NCBI GenBank assembly: GCA_022574595.1
Contig: JACZRS010000019.1
Coordinates: 1-64,000 of the forward strand
Source of the DNA: Planctomycetota bacterium
GTDB lineage: Bacteria > Planctomycetota > Phycisphaerae > Phycisphaerales > SM1A02
Length of the DNA stretch: 64,000 nt
Direction of reading: 5' to 3'
Shown: in pieces, positions 10,303-62,860 of the stretch
Numbering within the stretch: position 1 is the first letter of the stretch
How the letters are laid out: each line of letters begins with the position of its first letter
Translations under genes and position numbers: made by a program
Notes under the pieces: generated by a model
What the model was told of the DNA's origin: nothing
Seen by the model: only the letters and a program-made list of their open reading frames with translations
Database searches by the model: none

Positions 10303-13300
10303 ATGCTGGTATTACACGTCAATTGGGCAGAAGGAGCGCTTCGAGTATGGGCGGAATCATCAACCACCTACGCAGCGCGATCATCAAATGTATTAGATAG
10401 CGCTAATAATTTAGCGCCTATTGAGAGGTTGACTAGTGATGAAAATTCTCCAGCTGTCGCTTTAGCGGAACCGTCAATTATTGCGCTACATGATTTTGCG
10501 CTAGCGCCAGATGAGCTATCTCAAGAATTAATTGATCGAGGTTTGGTGGATGCAGATTGCTTGGCGGAGGTGCGCAATATCAGCCTGAACCTGCCCTGTG
10601 ATGATAATGGCCCGCGCCCTAGCGATAGGCTGATGAGCGCACTTGGGCCTGTGGAAATAGCCAATGATTTACGTCTTGGGAAAGTGCAGATACCAACGGT
10701 TGCCCTTTCCAACGATCATGCAATTGCATCAGCCTTGCGGCTGGAAGACGTTGGGCCAAGTGAAGGGCTGGAATTTGGGCGTTCACTTAGGTATTGGATT
10801 GTTGTTGCAAGGTTTGCCCTCGAACTGATCGTTGATCAAAGATTTATTCCAACTCTTGTTCAACCTAGAGATGGTGACTTGCAGGCTGCTTGGCATCCTT
10901 GGCTACACGATGAAGCTGCGCGGACTCGGGTAAGTGTGTTGCTCGCAGCTATGCCACCAATTGCCCGGGCCGTAGATGAATCTGAAGATAATCAGCCCTG
11001 GCGAGTCCTTAATGATGCCCTGCGCACGCTAACTGATAGTACAGTTCGCAAGGCTCTGATTGATGAAGACTACATAGATGCAACTCAAGGACGCGATGCA
11101 GCGCAAGATCCGCATGTTGCCTGGTGCAGGGGACTATTAGATCGATCAAATCTTGTAAATACAATTGGTGGATCGACCGCTCAAATTGTACGAACCGTTA
11201 GAAAATGGATTGATCAACTAGACGAATCAGGCCGTGGCCGCGATGGTTTTCACCTTTGCCTGGAATTGCAAGAACCAATAGAAGAGGATGTCAAGGAAGA
11301 TGAAGTCTCTGGACTTGATTCGCGTTGGCGATTGAATTTACTCTTGCTAGCTGACGACGGTGAGTCTCAAGTAACTATCGAAGCAGCTCAAATTTGGGCG
11401 GGATCACCTTCTGCTCAAAGTATCGAAGGCCGACGCTTGGATAGACCACATGAATTCATGCTCGCTGAACTAGGTCGTGCTAGCAAAATTTATCCCAAGA
11501 TAGAATCTGCACTTAAGGATCCCCAGCCTTCGGGTGTGGATCTGGATACCACAGAAGCTGTGCAATTTTTGCGCGAGTTTCGCCCAATTCTCGAAGATTC
11601 TGGTTTCAAAGTAATTGCGCCAAAATGGTGGGATCAACCATCAGGGCGGCTAGGTGTGCGTTTGCAAATTGATTCCGACCCACTTGCTGATGAATCATTC
11701 CGTGGATCGACCGGAACCATATCAAACTCTCCGCTTGGTCTGGACACGCTGGTAAATTATCGCTGGCAACTATCAGTTGGCGATCACGCCCTATCTCTGG
11801 ATCATCTTCATCGCCTGACCCAGATGGCTTCGCCTTTGGTTCGAATTGGCAAACAATGGGTTGAAATCAGGCCGGAGGATCTGGAAAAAGCTAGAGAGTT
11901 GTTTTTGAAGGATGAAAGTGGTGAGGTAACGCTGGGGCGGGCCCTTCGATTTGCCCAGGGTCTTGATGAGGTCACACACGGGCTTCCCGTATTGGGCACA
12001 CAAACATCCGGTTGGGTTTCGGAACTATTTGATCTAGATGGCCATGAATCAATGAAGCATCTGGAGCAACCCCAAGGATTTATTGGTGAACTAAGGCCAT
12101 ATCAAAAGACAGGTTTGAGTTGGCTTGTATTCCTTGAGCGTTATGGGCTAGGCGCTTGTCTAGCTGACGATATGGGTCTGGGTAAGACAATTCAGCTTAT
12201 TGCGCTGTTAGTCCATGAACGATCTACTGGGCAGGGAAAGCCAGGCCCAACGCTCTTGGTAGTGCCAACTTCAGTAGTTGGCAACTGGGCGCGTGAGCTT
12301 GAGCGATTCTCGCCATCCTTGTCATTTTACATACATCACGGTCCGGAACGGCCGTTGGGTGATGAATTTCTCCATATCGTTTCTAATAAGGATGTCGTCA
12401 TCACCACATACGCGTTGGTTCCGCGCGATCAGGAAACACTAAACAAACTGCATTGGCATCGAGTAGTTCTCGACGAAGCGCAGTATGTAAAGAACCCACC
12501 TACCAAACAAGCAACAGCAATTCGAGCGCTTTCTGCTTCAAGGCGTATTGCCATGACTGGTACCCCGGTTGAGAATCGCTTGACGGAGCTTTGGTCGATT
12601 ATGCAGTTCTGCAACCCCGGTTATCTGGGTACAGCAGAAGATTTCAGAAGACGATTTGCCGTCCCTATAGAACGACACCGAGATAAAGCCAAAGCTGATG
12701 CGCTGCGCGATCTTGTTGGTCCGTTTGTGCTTAGGAGATTGAAATCTGATCCTAAAGTTATTGTTGATCTGCCGCCTTGTATTGAAACCAAGGAGTACGC
12801 AACACTCTCGGTGGAACAGACAAAGTTATATCAAGCTATCGTAGATAAGATGCTTAACGCAGTTGATGAAGCAGATGGCATAAGACGCAAGGGACTTATA
12901 CTTGCGACTCTCACCAGACTTAAACAAATCTGTAATCATCCTGCCAACCTCTTGCGCGATGATAAAGCGCCGGAGATTATTGATGCCTCAACGGGTCAAC
13001 TTATAGATATAGATTCCAGACCGCTATCCAGTCGTTCAGGCAAATGTACTCGTCTTATGAAAATGCTTGAAGAATTAATCGCAGTTGGTGATCGCGCACT
13101 ACTGTTTACTCAATACAGGCGAATGGGAAATTTGCTTGAATCAATGATTCGACATGACCTTGACTGTGAAGTGATATACATGCATGGCGGAACTCCACAG
13201 AAAAAACGCCAAAAGCTTATCGATAAATTCCAATCGCCCGGCCTTGGAGCTGCGGTGTTTATCCTCTCACTTAAAGCTGGCGGAGTAGGACTTAACCTGA

Positions 13301-13581
13301 CCGCAGCCAATCACGTTTTTCACTTTGATCGATGGTGGAATCCTGCGGTAGAAAAACAAGCGACCGATCGCGCATTTAGAATTGGTCAAACCCGTACCGT
13401 GCACGTACACAAATTTATCTGCATGGGTACTTTAGAAGAACAAATCGATCAAATGATCGAACAAAAGATGGAGCTTGCGGACAATATTCTTGGCTCGGGT
13501 GAGGGATGGATTACTGAACTATCAACTCAGCAATTGCGTGATGTACTGAAATTACGTGGCTCAGCCATGGAGGTACAGTAG
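10303..13581 (+). CDS. SNF2-family DEAD-like helicase/ATPase
   Basis: The 1092-residue protein belongs to the bacterial Swi2/Snf2 ATPases, DNA-dependent motors that remodel nucleoprotein. The start MLVLHVNWAEGALRVWAES matches how these bacterial proteins usually begin. Residues 1 to about 600 form the family-specific N-terminal region. The motor follows: motif I DDMGLGKTIQ, motif Ia PTSVVGNW, DEAQ in motif II, TGTPVENRLTELWS, LKQICNHP, LFTQYRRM, and motifs V-VI KAGGVGLNLT and ATDRAFRIGQ. It overlaps the SWIM gene by one base. Such SNF2-SWIM pairs recur in bacteria, but their cellular role is not settled. Confidence 0.92.
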   Translation: MLVLHVNWAEGALRVWAESSTTYAARSSNVLDSANNLAPIERLTSDENSPAVALAEPSIIALHDFALAPDELSQELIDRGLVDADCLAEVRNISLNLPCDDNGPRPSDRLMSALGPVEIANDLRLGKVQIPTVALSNDHAIASALRLEDVGPSEGLEFGRSLRYWIVVARFALELIVDQRFIPTLVQPRDGDLQAAWHPWLHDEAARTRVSVLLAAMPPIARAVDESEDNQPWRVLNDALRTLTDSTVRKALIDEDYIDATQGRDAAQDPHVAWCRGLLDRSNLVNTIGGSTAQIVRTVRKWIDQLDESGRGRDGFHLCLELQEPIEEDVKEDEVSGLDSRWRLNLLLLADDGESQVTIEAAQIWAGSPSAQSIEGRRLDRPHEFMLAELGRASKIYPKIESALKDPQPSGVDLDTTEAVQFLREFRPILEDSGFKVIAPKWWDQPSGRLGVRLQIDSDPLADESFRGSTGTISNSPLGLDTLVNYRWQLSVGDHALSLDHLHRLTQMASPLVRIGKQWVEIRPEDLEKARELFLKDESGEVTLGRALRFAQGLDEVTHGLPVLGTQTSGWVSELFDLDGHESMKHLEQPQGFIGELRPYQKTGLSWLVFLERYGLGACLADDMGLGKTIQLIALLVHERSTGQGKPGPTLLVVPTSVVGNWARELERFSPSLSFYIHHGPERPLGDEFLHIVSNKDVVITTYALVPRDQETLNKLHWHRVVLDEAQYVKNPPTKQATAIRALSASRRIAMTGTPVENRLTELWSIMQFCNPGYLGTAEDFRRRFAVPIERHRDKAKADALRDLVGPFVLRRLKSDPKVIVDLPPCIETKEYATLSVEQTKLYQAIVDKMLNAVDEADGIRRKGLILATLTRLKQICNHPANLLRDDKAPEIIDASTGQLIDIDSRPLSSRSGKCTRLMKMLEELIAVGDRALLFTQYRRMGNLLESMIRHDLDCEVIYMHGGTPQKKRQKLIDKFQSPGLGAAVFILSLKAGGVGLNLTAANHVFHFDRWWNPAVEKQATDRAFRIGQTRTVHVHKFICMGTLEEQIDQMIEQKMELADNILGSGEGWITELSTQQLRDVLKLRGSAMEVQ

Positions 13582-49784: not shown

Positions 49785-50444
49785 TTAATTTTCAGCAAAG
49801 ATCTCAACATTGTCGAGTATGGATTTAGCAACTTCAATGAGAGGCCTGCGTGAGTTTCTCGCTTGCTTTTGCAGCATTTTCATGGCTTCAGGTTCGGTAT
49901 TGCCCTTGCGCTGGACAATGAACCACTTAGCTTGTTCAATGGTTTTGCGATCATCCAAGCGTTGCTTGAGAAATCCTATTTCAAGGCCATTATCAATGTA
50001 ATCTTGGTATCTTCTCCATGCAACTTCAATACTTACTCTCAAATGATCCTGACTTGCTGGTTTCAATAAAAATCCGAAGACTCCGATTTCCGCTGCTGTA
50101 GAAACATATTCGGGGTCCGAGTAAGCGGACAATATCATTACAGGTACCCCGTACTGTTTGAAGATTGTTTTGGCAGCCTCCAATCCATTGGTCTTTGGCA
50201 TTCGAATGTCAAGCAGAGCTAAGTCAGGTTTCTCTCGTTGGCAAAGCTTAATGGTTTCTTCACCATCTGCGGTTGGTCCAACTACTTGGTATCCAAGATC
50301 GGTAAGACTTGCACATATTCCAGTTGCAACAAGATGTTCATCATCCGCAACTAATATACGCTTTGGACTATTAGCAATAACATCCGAATTATTGATCGGT
50401 GAGATGCTAGTGCTCAAATTGTCATTACAGTTACCAACCGACAT
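49785..50444 (-). CDS. Response regulator with ANTAR RNA-binding output domain
   Basis: AAGGAG precedes the ATG. The 219-residue protein has a receiver domain with the acidic pocket D34-D35, phosphoacceptor D79 (LALLDIRMPK) and a conserved Lys in FLLKP. Residues about 150-210 form an ANTAR domain (LKQRLDDRKTIEQAKWFIVQ, ending RRPLIEVAKSIL). ANTAR proteins bind tandem small hairpins in nascent RNA and prevent transcription termination. The convergent histidine kinase gene is the likely partner. The RNA target was not identified in this window. Confidence 0.93.
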   Translation of the reverse strand: MSVGNCNDNLSTSISPINNSDVIANSPKRILVADDEHLVATGICASLTDLGYQVVGPTADGEETIKLCQREKPDLALLDIRMPKTNGLEAAKTIFKQYGVPVMILSAYSDPEYVSTAAEIGVFGFLLKPASQDHLRVSIEVAWRRYQDYIDNGLEIGFLKQRLDDRKTIEQAKWFIVQRKGNTEPEAMKMLQKQARNSRRPLIEVAKSILDNVEIFAEN

Positions 50445-50565: not shown

Positions 50566-51741
50566 TCAATCCAGGAAATCACGTGCGTCTAAGCGCTCAG
50601 GCACATATGTTTCAGTTACATATGAAATATCTTTTGTAATTAGTGATTCAACCTCCATTTTAAAACCGTTCCTCAGCATGTGCTGTATCTCGCGTTGCCA
50701 AGGCTTTTTGTCTATAAACCAGGGATATCCCGCAATCTGTTTTGCACGAGTTATGTCGCGCTCATTTAAATCAATTTTTACATCGTCCTTCAATGCGCAG
50801 CGTTCGTAATCCTCTGCTCTTATACCGATGAACTTTGCATCAGGCACAGCCATTCGCTCGCTTTCAAATGCAAGACTAATCGAACCCTGCTTAATTACAC
50901 TATAAATATAGTGTCCCCAAGGATCGCAATCTAGCAGGCAATAAATGGGTAAGCCAAGTTCTATATTCAAACGGCGCAAAAGTCGCCTCACACCTCTTGG
51001 CGGTTGTCCTGAACCTTCTGTCAAAATGCAGTTGTGAATTTCCCAGAAGCGATCTTCGTTGAATCTGCTCCAAACTGTATCTTTTTCAACGTGCAGGACG
51101 AAATCAGCTTCGCAGTTTTTGAACTCAATTACACTGGGTTCACAGATACTTGGGATAGAGTAGCCGCCTGTACCCATTCTACGACAATCAATTTCATCGC
51201 CGTTGTCGATAATGGTAATGTTGCCCACCATAGTGCCGCGTTTCTTTGCAAAGATATGTAATTCCTCACGCAAAGCATGCATGGAAACTTCAAGGTCTTC
51301 CAGTATGGGATCAGATTCACTTTGATCGTTAAATGTTTTTTCTTTTGTACCTTCGATTGTGTGTAAGCATTTGTAGTACATGCCACGCAAACTCAGAGTT
51401 TTTTGCGCTTCAATCAAATCCTTGCATCCGTTAGCTAGAAGCATAGTTTGCATGAATTTCTTGGCTTGATTTAGATTGAATAGGTTACGGCGCTGACTGT
51501 TGGATCCCATTTCCAGGATTCGCTTACGCTTGTTGTATTTCATATTTGAAACAGTGCGCAGCGGTATATCCACAAATGGATCACGCTGATTAAGACTCGA
51601 TTTAACCACAGCCTTGCCCATGGTGTCTATCTTGCTGATGGTATCTTTGTCTTTCTTTTTAGAAACTGGACTTAGGCGCCGTCTTGTAGGTTTCTTTGCA
51701 ATCGACTTATGTGTGCCTAATTTAGTTTTCTTTTTTGCCAT
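50566..51741 (-). CDS. top6A: DNA topoisomerase VI subunit A (Spo11-like)
   Basis: Subunit A makes the DNA double-strand break through a tyrosine. The 391-residue protein has a basic N-terminal extension (first 75 residues), then the winged-helix domain with LSLRGMYYKC, in which Y123 is the expected nucleophile. The Toprim domain has E219 (VLHVEKDTVW) and D271/D273 (CLLDCDPWGHYI), the metal-binding residues. The gene follows that of subunit B by 48 bp on the same strand. Topoisomerase VI is mainly archaeal and plant and is uncommon in bacteria, so the complete pair is notable. The N-terminal Lys/Arg extension is longer than in archaeal proteins. Confidence 0.92.
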   Translation of the reverse strand: MAKKKTKLGTHKSIAKKPTRRRLSPVSKKKDKDTISKIDTMGKAVVKSSLNQRDPFVDIPLRTVSNMKYNKRKRILEMGSNSQRRNLFNLNQAKKFMQTMLLANGCKDLIEAQKTLSLRGMYYKCLHTIEGTKEKTFNDQSESDPILEDLEVSMHALREELHIFAKKRGTMVGNITIIDNGDEIDCRRMGTGGYSIPSICEPSVIEFKNCEADFVLHVEKDTVWSRFNEDRFWEIHNCILTEGSGQPPRGVRRLLRRLNIELGLPIYCLLDCDPWGHYIYSVIKQGSISLAFESERMAVPDAKFIGIRAEDYERCALKDDVKIDLNERDITRAKQIAGYPWFIDKKPWQREIQHMLRNGFKMEVESLITKDISYVTETYVPERLDARDFLD

Positions 51742-51789
51742 TTATCTGATTTCTACTTGTGTGTACGATCAAGTAACCATGCCATAAAT

Positions 51790-53616
51790 TTATTTACGCT
51801 TGCCTGTTCGTTTTCGCGCCGTTTTTTTCTTCTTTTTTGTTACTTTTCTTTTCTTGGCAACGCTTTGGGGTTCTTTTCCAAAAAGTGTGTCATCTTCTTC
51901 ATTAATTTCAGGTGCTGCACTAGCAACAATTACTACGTGTTCGTCTCTTGCCAAACTTGCTACTTCATCAATAACTTTGCCTTCATCATCGAGTTGCTGA
52001 TCTGCCTGAGCAGTCCTGCGCTTGGCTTGTTTTAACAATGCGTAATAAATGCGCTTTGCATCCGAGCCAGTTATATCCTCACACGCTTTAGCGACCTCGC
52101 CTATGTACCTCTCAAAGATAGTGCGGCGTTCGGATTCACGTAGCATTCGCTTTCTACGACGCAGATATGTTCCTAGCTTTCTCCCACATTCCTGGAGTGC
52201 TAGCTTCATCTCCTTGCGAATCTCATCGTAATCCGCAATCGCTTCTTTGGATTCACTTGTAAATGGAACCCAAACACTAGCCATGTGAATCATGATCACT
52301 AAGGGACCTTGCGGGAGACTTCCCCGCGGTTGGCTTAAACCATAATTCTTCCAACTTGCTTCTAATGCGCCCTTAAACGAGCAGCAAGAGGACTGCTGAT
52401 ATAGTAGCGGAACCCTATTTGCGAACCTGATAACGCGAGCAGCATCTTCACCTTGAATTTCGCCTCCATATGCGATTCCAACTTCTATTTGAAATGGATT
52501 GCCTCTATACACCGCAGGTGGCCGAGTCGCAGCCGTATAAAACTCAGCCTTCACACCACGCAAGAGCCCTGCAAGCATGGCTTTGGAACCAATAGGAACT
52601 AAGCAGTCCGTTGGTGGTGGGTTAATGCGAATTTCCTGAATCGCTTTGTATAGCTTCTCTGCATCATTATGATCAATTGTCTTAATCCAACTATTGCCGG
52701 TCAGTCCCGCTGCAGAAGCAATGTCTCTTGCCTTGGTGGGACCTACTCTACAAAAATCATTACGTAAGAAGCCCGCAAGCTGCTTCTCCGTCGTGCGCTC
52801 TAGCATTTGAATCAACGTGCCAAGTTCAATGCCCTTGGGGTGCGGCTTGATTTCCAATGGTTCATCTGGCAGCTCATCAACCGTACGCTTAAAGTGACGG
52901 GTTTCATTGCCAGGTGTTACATATGTAATATCAGCATGAGGATTGGCGATAGCTGTAAGCTCAAGGTACTCGTCGATCGACTGTCTACCTTTTAGGTATT
53001 TGCCTTCAAGTTCAATTTCTACTTGCGTTCCATGACCTTGCGGAAAAAGTTTGTCATCTTCTTTGTGTTCATCATCGCTGACGACCTCTGCTCGATTCTT
53101 GGAAGTATCCATCTTTATGCGCATTTCGTGGGCTGGTTTGCGCTTTGAAGGTTTGGAGATAATCAACACGGGTTTGCCAGTAGTCATTAAGCCGTACATC
53201 CCCGCTGCACTGATACCTATTCCTTGCTGACCGCGGCTCATTTTCATTTGGTGAAACTTCGAGCCGTACAACAGTTTGCCGAAAATATGTTCTATTTGCT
53301 TTTTTACAATGCCCGGCCCATTATCGCGGACAATGATTTTGAATCTCGTTTCGTCCTTTTGAAGAATCTGCACAAAGATGTTTGGGAGTATTCCACCTTC
53401 TTCACACGCGTCAAGCGCATTATCTACCGCTTCCTTAATTGTAGTAAGTAACGCTTTACGCGGATTATCAAATCCCAGCAGGTGGCGGTTCTTTGCAAAA
53501 AACTCGCTGACAGAAATATCGCGTTGTTGGCTGGCCATGGACTCAGCAGTCGCAATTGTGCGCTGTTTCTTTTTTCGAGGCGATTTTCTACTTGCTGCTG
53601 TCAAAAGAGAACTCAT
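51790..53616 (-). CDS. top6B: DNA topoisomerase VI subunit B (GHKL ATPase)
   Basis: Subunit B is the ATP-driven gate of topoisomerase VI. The 608-residue protein shows the GHKL ATPase motifs: N66 (KEAVDNALDACEE), DNGPGI (98-103) and GQQGIGISAAG (129-139). The H2TH region (DFCRVGPTKARDIASAAGL) and transducer (NPFQIEVGIAYGG, FANRVPLLYQQSSC) follow in the usual order. Both ends are lysine-rich: an N-terminal SRKSPRKKKQR and a C-terminal KKRKVTKKKKKTARKRTGKR, absent from typical archaeal proteins. It is upstream of the subunit A gene and probably cotranscribed. Confidence 0.95.
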   Translation of the reverse strand: MSSLLTAASRKSPRKKKQRTIATAESMASQQRDISVSEFFAKNRHLLGFDNPRKALLTTIKEAVDNALDACEEGGILPNIFVQILQKDETRFKIIVRDNGPGIVKKQIEHIFGKLLYGSKFHQMKMSRGQQGIGISAAGMYGLMTTGKPVLIISKPSKRKPAHEMRIKMDTSKNRAEVVSDDEHKEDDKLFPQGHGTQVEIELEGKYLKGRQSIDEYLELTAIANPHADITYVTPGNETRHFKRTVDELPDEPLEIKPHPKGIELGTLIQMLERTTEKQLAGFLRNDFCRVGPTKARDIASAAGLTGNSWIKTIDHNDAEKLYKAIQEIRINPPPTDCLVPIGSKAMLAGLLRGVKAEFYTAATRPPAVYRGNPFQIEVGIAYGGEIQGEDAARVIRFANRVPLLYQQSSCCSFKGALEASWKNYGLSQPRGSLPQGPLVIMIHMASVWVPFTSESKEAIADYDEIRKEMKLALQECGRKLGTYLRRRKRMLRESERRTIFERYIGEVAKACEDITGSDAKRIYYALLKQAKRRTAQADQQLDDEGKVIDEVASLARDEHVVIVASAAPEINEEDDTLFGKEPQSVAKKRKVTKKKKKTARKRTGKRK

Positions 53617-54216: not shown

Positions 54217-54687
54217 ATGCAAACTACACTAATTATTTTGAAGCCTGATGCAGTGCAACGAGGCTTGATGGGCAGTATTATCTCCCGATTTGAGGATAAA
54301 GGGCTGAGAATAGTTGGTTGCAAGATGATGCTAATTCCTCGTGATTTGGCTGAAAAGCACTATGAAGTACACGCAGATAAGCCGTTTTATGAGGGATTAC
54401 TTAATTTTATGACATCTGGACCAGTCCTGGTCATAGCCCTTCAGGGAGTGGATGCCGTAGAAGTCTGTCGTAAGCTCATGGGGGCAACTTTCGGATCAAA
54501 AGCTGAACCGGGGACTATCAGAGGCGATTTTGGTATCTCAAACAGCTTCAACTTGATTCATGGCTCTGATAGCCCTGAAACTGCACTCGAGGAGCTGGAC
54601 AGATTCTTCAAACATGGTGATCTGATCGACTATGAGCGAGCTATCGAGCCCTGGGTCTACGACATGACCGCCGGTAGCCCAGAATAG
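54217..54687 (+). CDS. ndk: Nucleoside diphosphate kinase
   Basis: Ndk balances nucleoside triphosphates through a phosphohistidine. The 156-residue protein starts MQTTLIILKPDAVQRGLMGS. The active histidine is H115 (FNLIHGSDSPETA). It is about 13 residues longer than E. coli Ndk, at the C-terminus. AGGAAG precedes the ATG. Confidence 0.96.
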   Translation: MQTTLIILKPDAVQRGLMGSIISRFEDKGLRIVGCKMMLIPRDLAEKHYEVHADKPFYEGLLNFMTSGPVLVIALQGVDAVEVCRKLMGATFGSKAEPGTIRGDFGISNSFNLIHGSDSPETALEELDRFFKHGDLIDYERAIEPWVYDMTAGSPE

Positions 54688-58511: not shown

Positions 58512-61046
58512 TTACCCCCAGTTGGCTAATAATATTAGTAGGTCTATGGTATCAACCAAGCTGTCACTATTGAGATCGGCAAGACAACATACATCGCATG
58601 ATCCCCAGGAGGCAAATAGCAATACTATATCTGCTGTTGTTATTGCAAGATCTCCATCTATATCGCCAAGTAATGGTTGGATTGGATTTCCTTGAAATTC
58701 GTATGCGCCCATATCAGCGATTATTGGAGTGCCGCAACCGGTATCTGGGGTTTGCGGCGTATCTGCAAAGCGCGGATTGCCAACAAGATCGATAGGCGTG
58801 AATTCGTTTGTGTTTTCATCACTATCAAGATCAGCGATATCGCTAGGTACGACATTATTCCAAGCTGCATCAATTGCGGGGGAGTCAGCGCTAAGGAAAA
58901 AGTTGTCATCATCTGGATCTACAAATAGTGGGTTATCTGCGATGTTGCCGATCCCACCTAACTTGCCGGTTAGCCCTTGCACTGTTGAGTAATTTATTGT
59001 TGCCGTGAATTCAGGTGATTCATCACTAATAAATATCTGTGATGATTCGTTTGTACCGTCTTGATCTTGGTTATTCCAGAGAATGGCGTTGTTAATTGTT
59101 GCAGATACATCAATAAAGGAGCCAATTCCATTAGGTCCAATATATACACCGCCACCTGATCCTAGTGCTACATTATTAGCTATTGTGCAGTTAGTTAGTG
59201 TTGGGTTGCTTTCCCAATAGGTGCTAGCAACTGCGCCTCCGTTAGAGTTACTGCTATTACCTATGAATATGCAATTAGTAAAGTTGGGTTTAGCTCGGTC
59301 CCAACAGGCAACCGCTCCGCCGTCGTTTGCGGTTGATTGATTATCAAGGAATTCGCAGTTTATGTAATGCGGTGCTGAAAGATAAGTCTCTAGTGTGGCA
59401 CCTCCTGAAGCCGCAATGTTTTGGGTGAATCGACAATCAATGAATTGTCCAGAATTTGGTCCATATGAAAACACCGCTCCGCCACCATTGTGTAAAGCTG
59501 AATTGCCTACGAAGTCGCAATCGTTGAATGTAGGATCAAATGGGGTCTGGTTGTAGATTGCACCTCCTGAAAAATTAGCTTTATTTGCAGTAAAAGTGCA
59601 GGCGATTATAGTAGGTGCTCCAGAAACATTTGCGATCGCACCCCCAAGACCCATAAAATCATCTGGATCAGCGTCATCGTTACCGACTTCGTTACCTGTG
59701 AATGTGCAATTAATAAGGAATAGGTCTTCTTTAACAAGTGCGTGACCTAAATTGAAGATAGCGCCGCCGAATGCGTAAGCAGGATATTCACCTATTTCAA
59801 TTACGAGTTTATTATTTGTGAAAGTGCAGTTTTGTATTATGGCGTTACTGTATTCAGTAGCCAATCCCGCACCACGAGACCATTCATTTACCACTCCCAC
59901 ATTGGCATTAAAAATGCAGTCGTTCAATGAAATATTACCGGCTACATTGTAAACACCACCGCCATATATTTTTATTATGTTTTCTTCGAAAATGACGGAG
60001 TTAAGAACAGTATCACTCATGAAACTATTGACACCTCCGCCGGAACGAGCCTCGTTTGCTGTGAATATTGAATCAGAAATTGTTGCTTGTGCGAATTGGT
60101 TGTTTACCGCCCCTCCCATTTTATTCGCCTGATTATCAAAGAAAATTGAGTTGGTAATAAATAAAGTTGATTCTTGGGTGTGTATAGCTGCTCCTCTTTC
60201 CGCTGAATTTGCAGTAAATACACAATCAATTACTTCTAGAAGCGAATTATCATATATTGCAATTGCACCGCCATTTTCTTCCACATAATTGCCGCTAAAT
60301 AAGCAGTTGATCATAGTCAGATTGCTTGAAATAATTAGCAATCCTCCTCCGTTTTGCTCTTCTTGAGGCAAGGGTGTGTTTGCTATTGAGTGTGAAATGG
60401 TGATTCCATCAAGAATGGTTTGCTCTTGTGAGTTAAATAGTGAAACTATATGAAAACTATTGGGAGCTAATTGTGCCCCGCAGTTATCTTCACAAAGCAA
60501 GTCTGCCCATAAAACACAGAGCTCATCCCACTCAATGTAGCAGCAAGCAGGATCCCACACGCAAACTTCACTTTCGCACAAACCACATTCGCAGCCAGGT
60601 GTTTTGTGTTCACTGCAACAATCATTTAGCTCAACGCATTGGCCCTCAGGATCGAGCGCTCCTGTAAATACCGTTTCGTAAAGTTCGACATTGCGTTCAT
60701 CAGGATCCTCAGCCCCAATACCCGCATATCCGCCTATAAGGGATGTAGAACTAATCAGCTGGAATGTTGCGAACCGATCATCTGTGCCTTGGTTATTCGC
60801 TGCGTCCTGATCGGGTCTATAAACCCCCTGAGCAACTCGTATTTCTAAGACTTCTCCATTGTTTGCCGCCTCGGTCAGGGCATCTTGTAAGAATGTAAAA
60901 GCAGTATCCCAGGTTAAGCCATCCCCATCAAGAGGCGCATCATCATCTACATAAAGTACCGAGCCAGCGTTGGCCGTTATTGTCAATGAGAAAAACACAG
61001 AAAGAACAATCGATTTCGTAGCCATAGATATCAACTTAGCAACCAT
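58512..61046 (-). CDS. Secreted right-handed beta-helix protein with dockerin-like C-terminus
   Basis: The ATG at 61046 has GGGAGG at 8 bp and a signal peptide follows (MATKSIVLSVFFSLTITANA). The 844-residue protein is a long beta-helix of right-handed parallel type, with many GGAVYN-like rungs (GGGVYNVAGN, GGAIYNQTPF, GGAVASTYW), as in Chlamydia-type polymorphic membrane proteins and polysaccharide-active enzymes. Near residue 175 lies a Cys-rich insertion. It ends in two dockerin-like loops (GDIDGDLAITTADIVLLFAS, ADLNSDSLVDTIDLLILLAN) with WG at the end. No catalytic residues can be assigned. Confidence 0.85.
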   Translation of the reverse strand: MVAKLISMATKSIVLSVFFSLTITANAGSVLYVDDDAPLDGDGLTWDTAFTFLQDALTEAANNGEVLEIRVAQGVYRPDQDAANNQGTDDRFATFQLISSTSLIGGYAGIGAEDPDERNVELYETVFTGALDPEGQCVELNDCCSEHKTPGCECGLCESEVCVWDPACCYIEWDELCVLWADLLCEDNCGAQLAPNSFHIVSLFNSQEQTILDGITISHSIANTPLPQEEQNGGGLLIISSNLTMINCLFSGNYVEENGGAIAIYDNSLLEVIDCVFTANSAERGAAIHTQESTLFITNSIFFDNQANKMGGAVNNQFAQATISDSIFTANEARSGGGVNSFMSDTVLNSVIFEENIIKIYGGGVYNVAGNISLNDCIFNANVGVVNEWSRGAGLATEYSNAIIQNCTFTNNKLVIEIGEYPAYAFGGAIFNLGHALVKEDLFLINCTFTGNEVGNDDADPDDFMGLGGAIANVSGAPTIIACTFTANKANFSGGAIYNQTPFDPTFNDCDFVGNSALHNGGGAVFSYGPNSGQFIDCRFTQNIAASGGATLETYLSAPHYINCEFLDNQSTANDGGAVACWDRAKPNFTNCIFIGNSSNSNGGAVASTYWESNPTLTNCTIANNVALGSGGGVYIGPNGIGSFIDVSATINNAILWNNQDQDGTNESSQIFISDESPEFTATINYSTVQGLTGKLGGIGNIADNPLFVDPDDDNFFLSADSPAIDAAWNNVVPSDIADLDSDENTNEFTPIDLVGNPRFADTPQTPDTGCGTPIIADMGAYEFQGNPIQPLLGDIDGDLAITTADIVLLFASWGSCDVCCLADLNSDSLVDTIDLLILLANWG

Positions 61047-61138
61047 TGAAAAGCCTCCCGAAAATTGCAATAATACCCTTTACGCTCAGATCTGGCACAT
61101 CGGCGCTTAGGTCGGCTAAGCAGTAATTTTAGTATGAA

Positions 61139-62860
61139 CTAACCCCAATTGGCTAGAAGCAATAGCAGATCGATCGTGTTTACTATTCCATCGCCGTTTA
61201 GGTCGGCTGGGCAGGTTATTGGGGGTGGATCGCATGGTCCCCATGATGCGAACAAGGCCAGAATGTCAATTGTGCTTACGGCGAGATCGCCATTTAGGTC
61301 GCCAAGTGGGGTTATGCCACTGTTATTCATCAGAATTACAACATCTGCGGTTTCATCTATGAGCGCTAGATCGAGATCGCGATCATTGTCTATATCGACA
61401 AGTAGCGCGCATGATGCTGTTGCTGGTGCGTTGATTTCCTGATTAAATGTGAAGATGCCGTTGCCATCATTAGTTAAGATTCGCCAATCTCCCTGGAAAC
61501 TTGAAAGCACCCAATCGAGATCGCCATCACCATCGAGATCGCCTAGATCGGTTGCAAGTACGAATGGGTCGACCATATGGATGAGTGGGGGGGCAAGAGT
61601 TCCGTCGCCGTTGCCTAATAGAATTGCTCCTGTATTGGCTGTGCCGTTGGCAGTTGATACATCTTCAAAGCCGTCACCATTAACATCGCCGACTGTAATC
61701 ATCCATGGTCCGCCCCCGGCATTTTGTGGTGTTTGAGGTGTAAAGGCGCCATGACCATTATTCAGGTTGACGATCATTGTTTGGCTGAAGCGTGCGCCTA
61801 CAACAAGATCCATTAGGCCATCATTATTCATATCCGCAGCTGCGAGGGCCCATTCACCGTTACCTCCGCCTTCAAAGAAGGTTGGCGCGCCAAATACGCC
61901 GTTACCGTTATTAAGAAGGATAGAAAGGTTAGAGCTACTTGCGTTGGTGTTGACGATATCCATATCGCCATCGCCATCCACATCAAGCACCGCTATTCCT
62001 CGCGGGGCTGAACCTACTGCAACCTGCTGCTGTGGTGCGAAAGTGCCATCGCCTGTTCCTAGTAGAATTGATACGGTTCCAACTGCTATATTAGCTACAC
62101 AAATATCTGCAAGACCATCATGATTAAAATCGCCCGGTTCATTTGGGCTTGCCTGAGTATTTACCGGAAATGTGGGTTGAATAAAATCATCAAATAAGCC
62201 GGTGTCATCTGCTTGATTTAGAAAGACGCGGAGGTCTTCGCTTACTTCGTTGATGATAGTAATATCCGCCCAGCCGTCGTTATTCAGGTCGGTTGCGAAA
62301 CCGCCATAGGCTCGGGATTGATCGTTTTCATCAATGAGCGTACTTAGAACATCTAATTCAGTAAGATCAATTGCAGCGGGCATCGCAGCGGTCCAGAACA
62401 CGAATGAATAACCACCAAATCTTAGAGTGGGTCCGCCCTTGGCCTGAATATCGTGTGAGAGAAACACCATTACCTGTTCGCCGAAGAAGAAGTTATTGTT
62501 TGGGTTTAGTGTTACTGATTGGTTGTTATTGGAAAACTGGAAGTTTCCTTGTGCGGTTCCACTCCATCTGCCGAAGGCCCAGAAACTCTGGTTGGTTATT
62601 GATGCTGGGTCTACGGGTTGATCGAAATTAACTGTAATCGAAGAGCCAGTTGGTACGCTGATTGTGTGAGCTGCTGGTTGAGTGGATACAACTCCAAGTT
62701 CTCCTGCGCTAGCTTTGGTAGTAGCGCATAATAAAATTGCAAAGCCAAGAAATACACTTGGCAAGGCGTTTAGTTTATTGCTAATTTGTGCCCTTGAAAC
62801 CCAGTGTTTTTGCTTGTTATCAAGTGATTTTCGCTTAAGGGAAATGTGCCAGTTATTCAT
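61139..62860 (-). CDS. Secreted FG-GAP/VCBS repeat protein with dockerin-like C-terminus
   Basis: The 573-residue product has a signal peptide after a basic N-terminal stretch (about residues 35-53). An Ig-like domain follows (TISVPTGSSITVNFDQPVDP, Big-5 type). The rest is an FG-GAP/VCBS propeller with DxNNDGxxD calcium loops (DLNNDGWADITI, DFNHDGLADICV, DVDGDGDMDIVN, DMNNDGLMDLVV, DVNGDGFEDVST). The end holds a dockerin-like tandem (GDLNGDLAVSTIDILALFAS, ADLNGDGIVNTIDLLLLLAN) and WG. It may be an adhesion or carbohydrate-binding protein on the surface. Confidence 0.86.
   Translation of the reverse strand: MNNWHISLKRKSLDNKQKHWVSRAQISNKLNALPSVFLGFAILLCATTKASAGELGVVSTQPAAHTISVPTGSSITVNFDQPVDPASITNQSFWAFGRWSGTAQGNFQFSNNNQSVTLNPNNNFFFGEQVMVFLSHDIQAKGGPTLRFGGYSFVFWTAAMPAAIDLTELDVLSTLIDENDQSRAYGGFATDLNNDGWADITIINEVSEDLRVFLNQADDTGLFDDFIQPTFPVNTQASPNEPGDFNHDGLADICVANIAVGTVSILLGTGDGTFAPQQQVAVGSAPRGIAVLDVDGDGDMDIVNTNASSSNLSILLNNGNGVFGAPTFFEGGGNGEWALAAADMNNDGLMDLVVGARFSQTMIVNLNNGHGAFTPQTPQNAGGGPWMITVGDVNGDGFEDVSTANGTANTGAILLGNGDGTLAPPLIHMVDPFVLATDLGDLDGDGDLDWVLSSFQGDWRILTNDGNGIFTFNQEINAPATASCALLVDIDNDRDLDLALIDETADVVILMNNSGITPLGDLNGDLAVSTIDILALFASWGPCDPPPITCPADLNGDGIVNTIDLLLLLANWG

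Follow-up and report, generated by a model that had tools for sequence, protein, structure and literature searches.

How can topoisomerase VI (topo VI) replace topoisomerase IV (topo IV) in a bacterium, and what would supply so slow an enzyme, distributive on supercoils, with its placement and its processivity? The question is raised by a stretch of 64,000 nucleotides from a Planctomycetota bacterium of the order Phycisphaerales (contig JACZRS010000019.1 of assembly GCA_022574595.1; the whole stretch is called the window below), in which the genes for both topo VI subunits, top6B and then top6A, lie adjacent on the minus strand with a gap of 48 bases. The genome concerned (G000, with the window on its contig C19) comprises 4.09 Mb in 31 contigs. 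The explanation that we favour, and consider moderately probable, is that a topo VI of archaeal descent replaced topo IV as the decatenase beside gyrase, and that an LF motif in the tail of its B subunit docks in the DnaN sliding clamp. A conserved clamp motif would be a short, mutable and directly testable answer to the question posed here.

Both topo VI genes are real and intact, and all catalytic residues are present. Namely, Pfam finds Toprim (E 4.5e-58), TP6A_N (1.2e-15), the Topo-VIb transducer (5e-58) and the GHKL ATPase on the pair, while in NCBIfam subunit A scores above the cut-off of NF003333 (532.7 bits, with 465 required) and subunit B above that of NF003218, the model for topo VI subunit B (680.3 bits, with 274 required). 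The label of NF003333, 'topoisomerase IV subunit A', we take as a misnomer, because the PDB chains matched by subunit A are those of topo VI and a sibling model from the PRK04342 series bears the topo VI label. Top6A carries Y123 (with Y122), E219, D271 and D273, which we take to be its active-site residues, the four being invariant in 29 aligned A subunits; Top6B carries N66, DNGPGI from 98 and GQQGIG from 129, and N66, 98-103 and 129-134 are invariant in 45 aligned B subunits. An earlier note on this DNA had claimed a complete topo VI with just these residues, and profiles, PDB matches, fold tests and alignments all bear it out. The structural models have mean pLDDT values of 87.5 for Top6A (below 50 at residues 1-26) and 79.6 for Top6B (below 50 at 1-18, 572-590 and 595-597, and also at the short core stretches 31-33, 115-124, 129-132 and 450-452). 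For both subunits, the best PDB folds are chains of M. mazei and other archaeal topo VI, and the Top6B model aligns with the 2HKJ and 1MU5 chains, which presumably include the H2TH domain, over 469-471 columns with a TM-score of 0.88 by target length. In other words, the pair shares domain order, catalytic residues and fold with the enzymes of Methanosarcina mazei (2Q2E, 9O0G) and Saccharolobus shibatae (2ZBK), whereas the C-terminal, Ig-like part of the M. mazei enzyme is unmatched in Top6B of the window, which has a disordered tail with LF and poly-lysine instead. Subunit A is nearer to S. shibatae (268 bits vs 161 for M. mazei) and subunit B to M. mazei (510 vs 297), a hint at different histories of the two subunits. 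From sequence and models, we predict an A2B2 heterotetramer that carries out ATP-dependent strand passage and decatenation. Identity with Spo11 of the meiotic core complex was rejected, as the Spo11 match to the Top6A profile (8URQ, E 2.1e-8) is far weaker than those of topo VI-A chains (1.2e-85 to 4.3e-109) and a full Top6B is present.

What other type II enzymes does this bacterium have? Counting GyrA/ParC by PF00521 and GyrB/ParE by PF00204, we found one gene of each in G000; a second type IIA pair (ParC/ParE) was not found by this profile search of a genome that is 96.4% complete, and the GyrA carries, read by eye, the GyrA-box-like QQHRGGRG. The check for gyrase and topo IV proposed in the earlier note thus returns a single type IIA pair. 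In our set of 61 relatives, G000 included, a full second type IIA pair occurs in only five genomes, all of one family (f6: G041, G045, G049, G053, G057), each with two PF00521 and two PF00204 genes and all lacking both topo VI genes. The second pair stands together in three of the five (G045, G049, G057), and, compared with the GyrA of the window species, the first A subunit has 58% identity and the second about 33-34% (G041, G049); this family offers a natural comparison. The 55 relatives with a topo VI subunit have exactly one PF00521 gene in 51 cases, none in 2 (G010 and G013, 74 and 72% complete) and two partial ones in 2 (G011, G023); for PF00204 the exceptions are G043 with two and G013 and G020 with none. 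What is more, in a sample of 294 genomes of the phylum, at least two, one and no PF00521 genes are found in 17, 115 and 4 of the 136 genomes with topo VI-B (the last four being 80 to 83% complete) and in 84, 71 and 3 of the 158 without it; for at least two genes, 17/136 vs 84/158, Fisher's p is 9.8e-14, with relatedness ignored. Genomes with topo VI hence tend to lack a further type IIA enzyme, and vice versa, but not strictly, and a one-for-one exclusion of topo VI and topo IV across the phylum was rejected because of the 17 genomes that have both topo VI-B and at least two PF00521 matches. Among these 17, G194 has one gene in two matches, in G171 and G303 the second match is a fragment, G174 and G294 each show a pair of near-full matches that score like GyrA, G239 has one of 457 bits, and 12, again including G294, carry a short PF00521 type. 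The short-type genomes (G078, G084, G093, G108, G156, G202, G230, G233, G242, G245, G255, G294) have topo VI-B and a GyrA-like gene, their short proteins scoring 329-363 bits, with 633-708 aa in the five extracted. Some genomes of the phylum may thus possibly hold three type II topoisomerases.

Topo VI in this group, without topo IV, is of an already known kind. Namely, bacterial topo VI without topo IV and with gyrase present has been published, Planctomycetota families included (Allen and Maxwell 2024, PMC11302465), and the pattern described above extends that published absence, reported there for topo VI bacteria outside Pseudomonadota and Terrabacteria. The same paper, as excerpted, confines three type II enzymes to those two groups, in contrast to the Planctomycetota genomes seen here in which topo VI accompanies two or more PF00521 genes. 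Six genomes from elsewhere (Nanoarchaeia, two Nitrospira, Myxococcales, Betaproteobacteria and Elusimicrobia) have one PF00521 gene each, that of Elusimicrobia as two partial matches. According to unpublished data cited in PMC11302465, an E. coli parE mutant is complemented by the topo VI of M. mazei. With bacterial topo IV (ParC2ParE2), the enzyme of the window would share the role of decatenation, whereas the cleavage subunit is unrelated. The bacterial topo VI of that paper belongs to the same family as ours, with gyrase present and topo IV absent, and a clamp motif is not described in the excerpted text. The conserved LF motif is the new element; the rest of the topo VI finding is known.

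In the window, the Top6B tail is predicted to be disordered and contains EEDDTLFG followed by KKRKVTKKKKK, the motif core being DDTLF, without Q. Within this order, Top6B tails extend 42 to 155 residues beyond the core (where the anchor could be placed and the contig had not ended), and their length and sequence vary widely, with the LF dipeptide kept. In particular, of the 53 C-termini in the relatives set that are complete, 52 have LF; the one without it, G052, ends in GQYELYAS. In a shuffle test on the order together with G300, wherever the anchor was found, LF occurs in 51 of 53 tails (the two without it are G052 and G059, the latter cut by a contig end), while shuffles give a mean of 2.6 and a maximum of 10 in 2000 rounds; the fragment of G031 is counted in these order-level figures and stands outside the set of 156 tails described below. 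As many as 51 of the 66 tail phenylalanines in this shuffle set stand in LF, and a G follows directly at 21 of the 51 sites. Most genomes of families f1, f3 and f4 have, like the window, acidic residues ahead of LF and the motif before the lysine run; in f5 and part of f1 and f2, LF lies at the extreme C-terminus (QELF, DEQLF, QEGLFD, QGNLFD, PSLF, DPRLF). A dipeptide that shifts its place yet is retained is typical of a short linear motif.

The motif is not confined to this order. From 222 bacterial C-termini, 66 were dropped (less than 25 aa beyond the core plus 30, as in tail-less proteins; identical to another; or cut, as in G059), which left 156 distinct tails; L285, L289, L320 and L340 (contig end) and L264 (frame shift before the tail) had been excluded beforehand. 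LF is found in 142 of the 156 (shuffles: mean 7.3, maximum 16), [QDESG]..LF in 100 (2.6 in shuffles) and Q..[LM]F in 22 (0.2 in shuffles), against LF in 1 of 34 GyrA/ParC tails and 1 of 66 Top6A N-termini as controls; these shuffle comparisons, and the matrix tests below, ignore kinship. For a sample of 248 genomes of the class, tails were read in 60 genomes spanning its families. Among long-tail families, LF is present in 6/6 (f1) and 9/9 (f2) further genomes, in 9/9 of f105 and of f107, 4/5 of f99, 2/4 of f96 and 1/1 each of f101, f104 and f106; in the families with a tail-less Top6B (f7, f8, f9, f100, f108, f109, f111) it is present in 0/8, and in f102 in 0/4, one of which has a 58-aa extension without LF. 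A Q-led motif such as QLELF, QMQLF or QMELF occurs in 4 of the 9 f105 genomes. In a Nitrospirota sample, 44 of 148 genomes have a topo VI-B match, 28 of them strong and the other 16 at E 2e-7 or worse; 15 of the 28 strong tails carry QxxLF (shuffled mean 0.03), in forms such as QQALF, QQDLF, QARLF, QIALF, QMTLF and QQELF, and every LF there is a QxxLF. The LF tail motif, as read from these sequences, is thus conserved in two bacterial phyla.

Why should such a motif point to the sliding clamp? The consensus for DnaN partners is QL[S/D]LF (also in PMC9690074), revised to Q-aliphatic-x-[L/M][F/L], with the Q helpful and not absolutely required (PMC13254535). We compared the tails with the clamp motif of the hosts' own DnaE, aligned for 29 of 30 loci of the order (G002, under 1000 aa, was dropped). 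Four of these (G024, G011, G012, G016) we take as wrong-strand frames, as they have no motif and the longest frame is longer than the matched one; the remaining 25 motifs, three of them from f6 genomes without topo VI, gave the matrix, applied with neutral padding at tail ends. At one aligned place, DnaE of the order has QMNFFG, QGSLFG, QLNIFA and others, and in the four f5 genomes read it has SSDDFLFG, TSDDFLFG or NAADFLFG, from which it follows that a clamp motif of this order need not contain Q. With this matrix, 79 of the 156 tails reach p<=0.05, as opposed to 0 of 34 GyrA/ParC tails and 6 of 66 Top6A N-termini (about 3 expected by chance). The acidic-x-LF of the Top6B tail looks like the hosts' DnaE motif and is a candidate DnaN motif. 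Neither Q..[LM][FL] nor LF was found in the last 80 residues of the ParC-type (3) and ParE-type (5) frames read from f6, a difference between these frames and Top6B of the window.

The mechanism that we propose would run as follows. A working A2B2 topo VI of archaeal descent would stand in for topo IV as chromosome decatenase in this Phycisphaerales lineage, beside gyrase. The acidic-x-LF of its disordered Top6B tail would dock in the pocket of the DnaN clamp, while the poly-lysine part of Top6B and the lysine-rich N-terminus of Top6A would hold DNA. Clamps left behind the fork would then place topo VI on freshly replicated sister duplexes, the site of precatenanes, and the tether would make this enzyme, which acts distributively on supercoils, more processive. 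M. mazei topo VI is indeed distributive on supercoils and unlinks crossings better than it relaxes supercoils, and a role in clearing precatenanes in the wake of the fork, possibly helped by accessory factors, has been proposed for it (both PMC8837201). E. coli topo IV, by comparison, is recruited by MukBEF (PMC11253446, PMC8837201) and kept off the fork by SeqA, whereas the proposed clamp tether would put topo VI on just-copied DNA. In the literature searched we found no published link of topo VI or topo IV to a sliding clamp. Nearest among it is a pull-down with P. abyssi NucS in which PCNA turned up together with the two topo VI subunits (PMC4929162, PMC8228993); in the excerpted part of a review table, topo I and topo II alpha are given as PCNA partners, and no topoisomerase as a partner of the bacterial clamp (PMC9690074). 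With eukaryotic topo II alpha, too, a type II topoisomerase is coupled to a sliding clamp, but it is of type IIA, with another clamp and another motif, so that the parallel is functional only. If our proposal is true, it adds a topoisomerase to the partner list of the bacterial clamp and links DNA untangling to DNA copying.

That said, a number of observations weigh against clamp docking. Some 77 of the 156 tails individually fall short of p 0.05 with the DnaE matrix, and some of the best matrix hits are without LF. Within the order, Q stands at the first motif position in just 5 of 51 sites, with D, G or another residue elsewhere. LF is absent from 13 of the 28 Nitrospirota tails (two have QLALL, 11 neither), from the Myxococcales tail, which has QLSLV, and from four tailed Top6B of the class sample (G451 and G474 of f96, G459 of f99, G378 of f102). 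Lysine tails without LF are found in all 4 Elusimicrobia, in Rokubacteria and in a Betaproteobacterium.

The last of these observations fits the strongest competing explanation, which we nevertheless consider rather unlikely, namely that an ordinary topo VI replaced topo IV, with tails that are non-specific DNA-binding lysine extensions and an LF that is incidental. Lysine repeats are said to give actinobacterial TopA its processivity (PMC7398561); like Top6B, TopA is a topoisomerase with a lysine-rich tail, but it is of type I, and a clamp motif is not described in the text of that paper available. The earlier note, too, had suggested that the Lys-rich extensions of both subunits could add non-specific DNA binding. 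The extensions are real, with Lys or Arg at 13 of the first 30 residues of Top6A and 15 of the last 26 of Top6B, but DNA binding alone leaves the LF of the B extension unexplained, and this motif, which the note had missed, is the most conserved part of that extension. An incidental LF is at odds with the excess over shuffled tails, both for LF and for [QDESG]..LF, and with the fact that LF is the last residue pair in several genomes. Less probable still, in our estimation, is that LF serves as a docking site for another partner, such as a subunit of an SMC complex or a segregation protein, by analogy with MukB and ParC of E. coli. The recruitment of E. coli topo IV by MukBEF and its exclusion from the fork by SeqA speak for such a site, as does the missing Q in most motifs of the order. 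Against it, the DnaE motif of the order shares LFG and, in f5, also the acidic lead, and QQELF, QMELF, QLELF and similar forms are present in Nitrospirota and in the f105 tails with Q.

An auxiliary topo VI, with gyrase alone decatenating, we regard as improbable as well. It draws on 71 of the 158 phylum genomes without topo VI-B, which have one PF00521 gene, and on G050 (family f2, 98% complete), which has no topo VI, one PF00521 and one PF00204 and is apparently gyrase-only; bacteria of this phylum can thus apparently live on gyrase alone, which also counts against our proposal. Opposed to this are the near-universal presence of topo VI in relatives and the second type IIA pair in 5 of the 6 relatives that lack both subunits. 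Three other genomes of the genus of G050 (G037, G042, G046) have topo VI.

Topo VI is native to this lineage and no recent import, as is evident from topo VI-B in 54 of the 61 relatives (topo VI-A in 55) and from shared neighbours. Topo VI-B is also found in 136 of 294 genomes of the phylum sample and 156 of 248 of the class sample, two of the latter being weak matches (E about 1e-4). The statement of the earlier note that topo VI is uncommon in bacteria therefore needs qualifying, as these counts reject rarity for this group. The closest named relatives of the enzyme are metagenome-assembled genomes (MAGs) of Planctomycetota and Phycisphaerales, the best at 90% identity, and a recent archaeal contaminant was not seen. 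The full order rpsO-pnp-hisK-ANTAR-top6A-top6B-ndk-sigma is kept in 2 of 5 related stretches of 19.9 kb (G036, G034) and partly in the other 3: G019 has rpsO, pnp, the kinase, ANTAR, top6A and top6B in altered order, and for G008 and G043 the matches were limited to the topo VI genes and the ANTAR regulator. The ANTAR response regulator, downstream of top6A on the same strand in the window, stands beside topo VI in 5/5 of these stretches and 2/3 shorter named loci (not L270), and ndk in 2/5 and 2/3, respectively; in family f4 (e.g. G039, G043, G051), top6A and top6B lie apart from each other. Archaeal contamination or a chimeric contig, for which nothing was found in favour, may be dismissed given topo VI in nearly all relatives and in named MAGs, a gene order common to relatives with no sign of chimerism at the flanks, and a GC content of 0.42-0.46 in the two 2-kb steps across the topo VI genes against 0.44-0.55 elsewhere in the window. 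In all, the observation of the earlier note is confirmed and its interpretation partly supported. In G031, a single contig, top6A is in one frame and top6B in pieces (C1:802000-803500 and C1:850400-853500; L158, L159), with residues 451-608 next to top6A and residues 6-43 on the opposite strand at a distance of about 49 kb, which reflects either a rearrangement or an assembly fault.

As to archaeal descent, the Top6A tree, in which bootstrap had not settled and archaeal branches are long, separates two types with support of 100/98. Type I holds the window, Nitrospirota and Elusimicrobiota, with a Nanoarchaeia row and S. shibatae; type II holds other genomes of the phylum and a Myxococcota row, with M. 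jannaschii and M. mazei. The two types agree with the at least two transfers of topo VI from archaea to bacteria that have been proposed (PMC11302465). In a quick Top6B tree without bootstrap, the 27 tailed rows of the class form one clade (SH-aLRT 97), nested in a clade (95) with Nitrospirota, Elusimicrobia, Rokubacteria and Betaproteobacteria rows; among its labels, G103, G142 and G115 are 'tail_noCBM' by a crude length rule, though without a real tail, and G451 is 'tailCBM' through QPLLL. In the archaeal phylum of the Nanoarchaeia row, topo VI-B is present in 117 of 119 genomes. Among the best 30 of these 117 loci, 23 have at least 40 aa beyond the core, and QxTL occurs in 6 of the 23, mostly near the end (shuffles: mean 0.05, none of 2000 reaching 6/23), as opposed to 3 of the 156 bacterial tails. 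This archaeal QxTL resembles a PCNA-binding peptide, which contains QSTLDSFF (PMC4929162), and predicted PCNA binding is, at this point, a lead only. One could tentatively go further and imagine that clamp tethering is old in this branch of topo VI, with a motif that tracks the host's clamp (DnaN-type QxxLF or acidic-x-LF in the bacterial relatives), and that the transferred enzyme was re-plugged from PCNA to DnaN, giving a replisome-tethered decatenase that replaced topo IV; this we consider possible, if doubtful. A clean contrast between archaea and bacteria is spoiled by 2 of the 30 archaeal loci read, which end in QTKLF or QTTLF.

Coordinates of the topo VI genes, of their tail elements and of the flanking genes within the window
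Feature	Position	Strand	Basis
top6A, topoisomerase VI subunit A (DNA-cleaving, Toprim), 391 aa	50566..51741	-	Pfam, NCBIfam, PDB matches, residues, model
top6B, topoisomerase VI subunit B (GHKL ATPase, transducer), 608 aa	51790..53616	-	Pfam, NCBIfam, PDB matches, residues, model
Codons of EEDDTLFG (Top6B residues 573-580), conserved LF motif, candidate DnaN sliding-clamp binding motif	51877..51900	-	tail conservation
Codons of the Lys/Arg-rich end of Top6B (residues 588-608)	51793..51855	-	sequence; block pLDDT about 45-50
Codons of the Lys/Arg-rich N-terminal extension of Top6A (residues 1-30; 13 K/R)	51652..51741	-	composition, alignment, model
Response regulator with ANTAR domain, downstream neighbour of top6A	49785..50444	-	Pfam
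Nucleoside diphosphate kinase (ndk), divergent neighbour of top6B	54217..54687	+	Pfam, NCBIfam

Elsewhere in the window, an open reading frame (ORF) of 852 aa at 58512-61070 has chlamydial polymorphic-membrane-protein repeats and is adjoined by a 573-aa ORF at 61139-62860 for which no NCBIfam match was obtained. Finally, a SNF2-type helicase of 1092 aa at 10303-13581 adjoins a tRNA-Lys, its best NCBIfam match being the SCO1167/SCO6262 family, below the cut-off.

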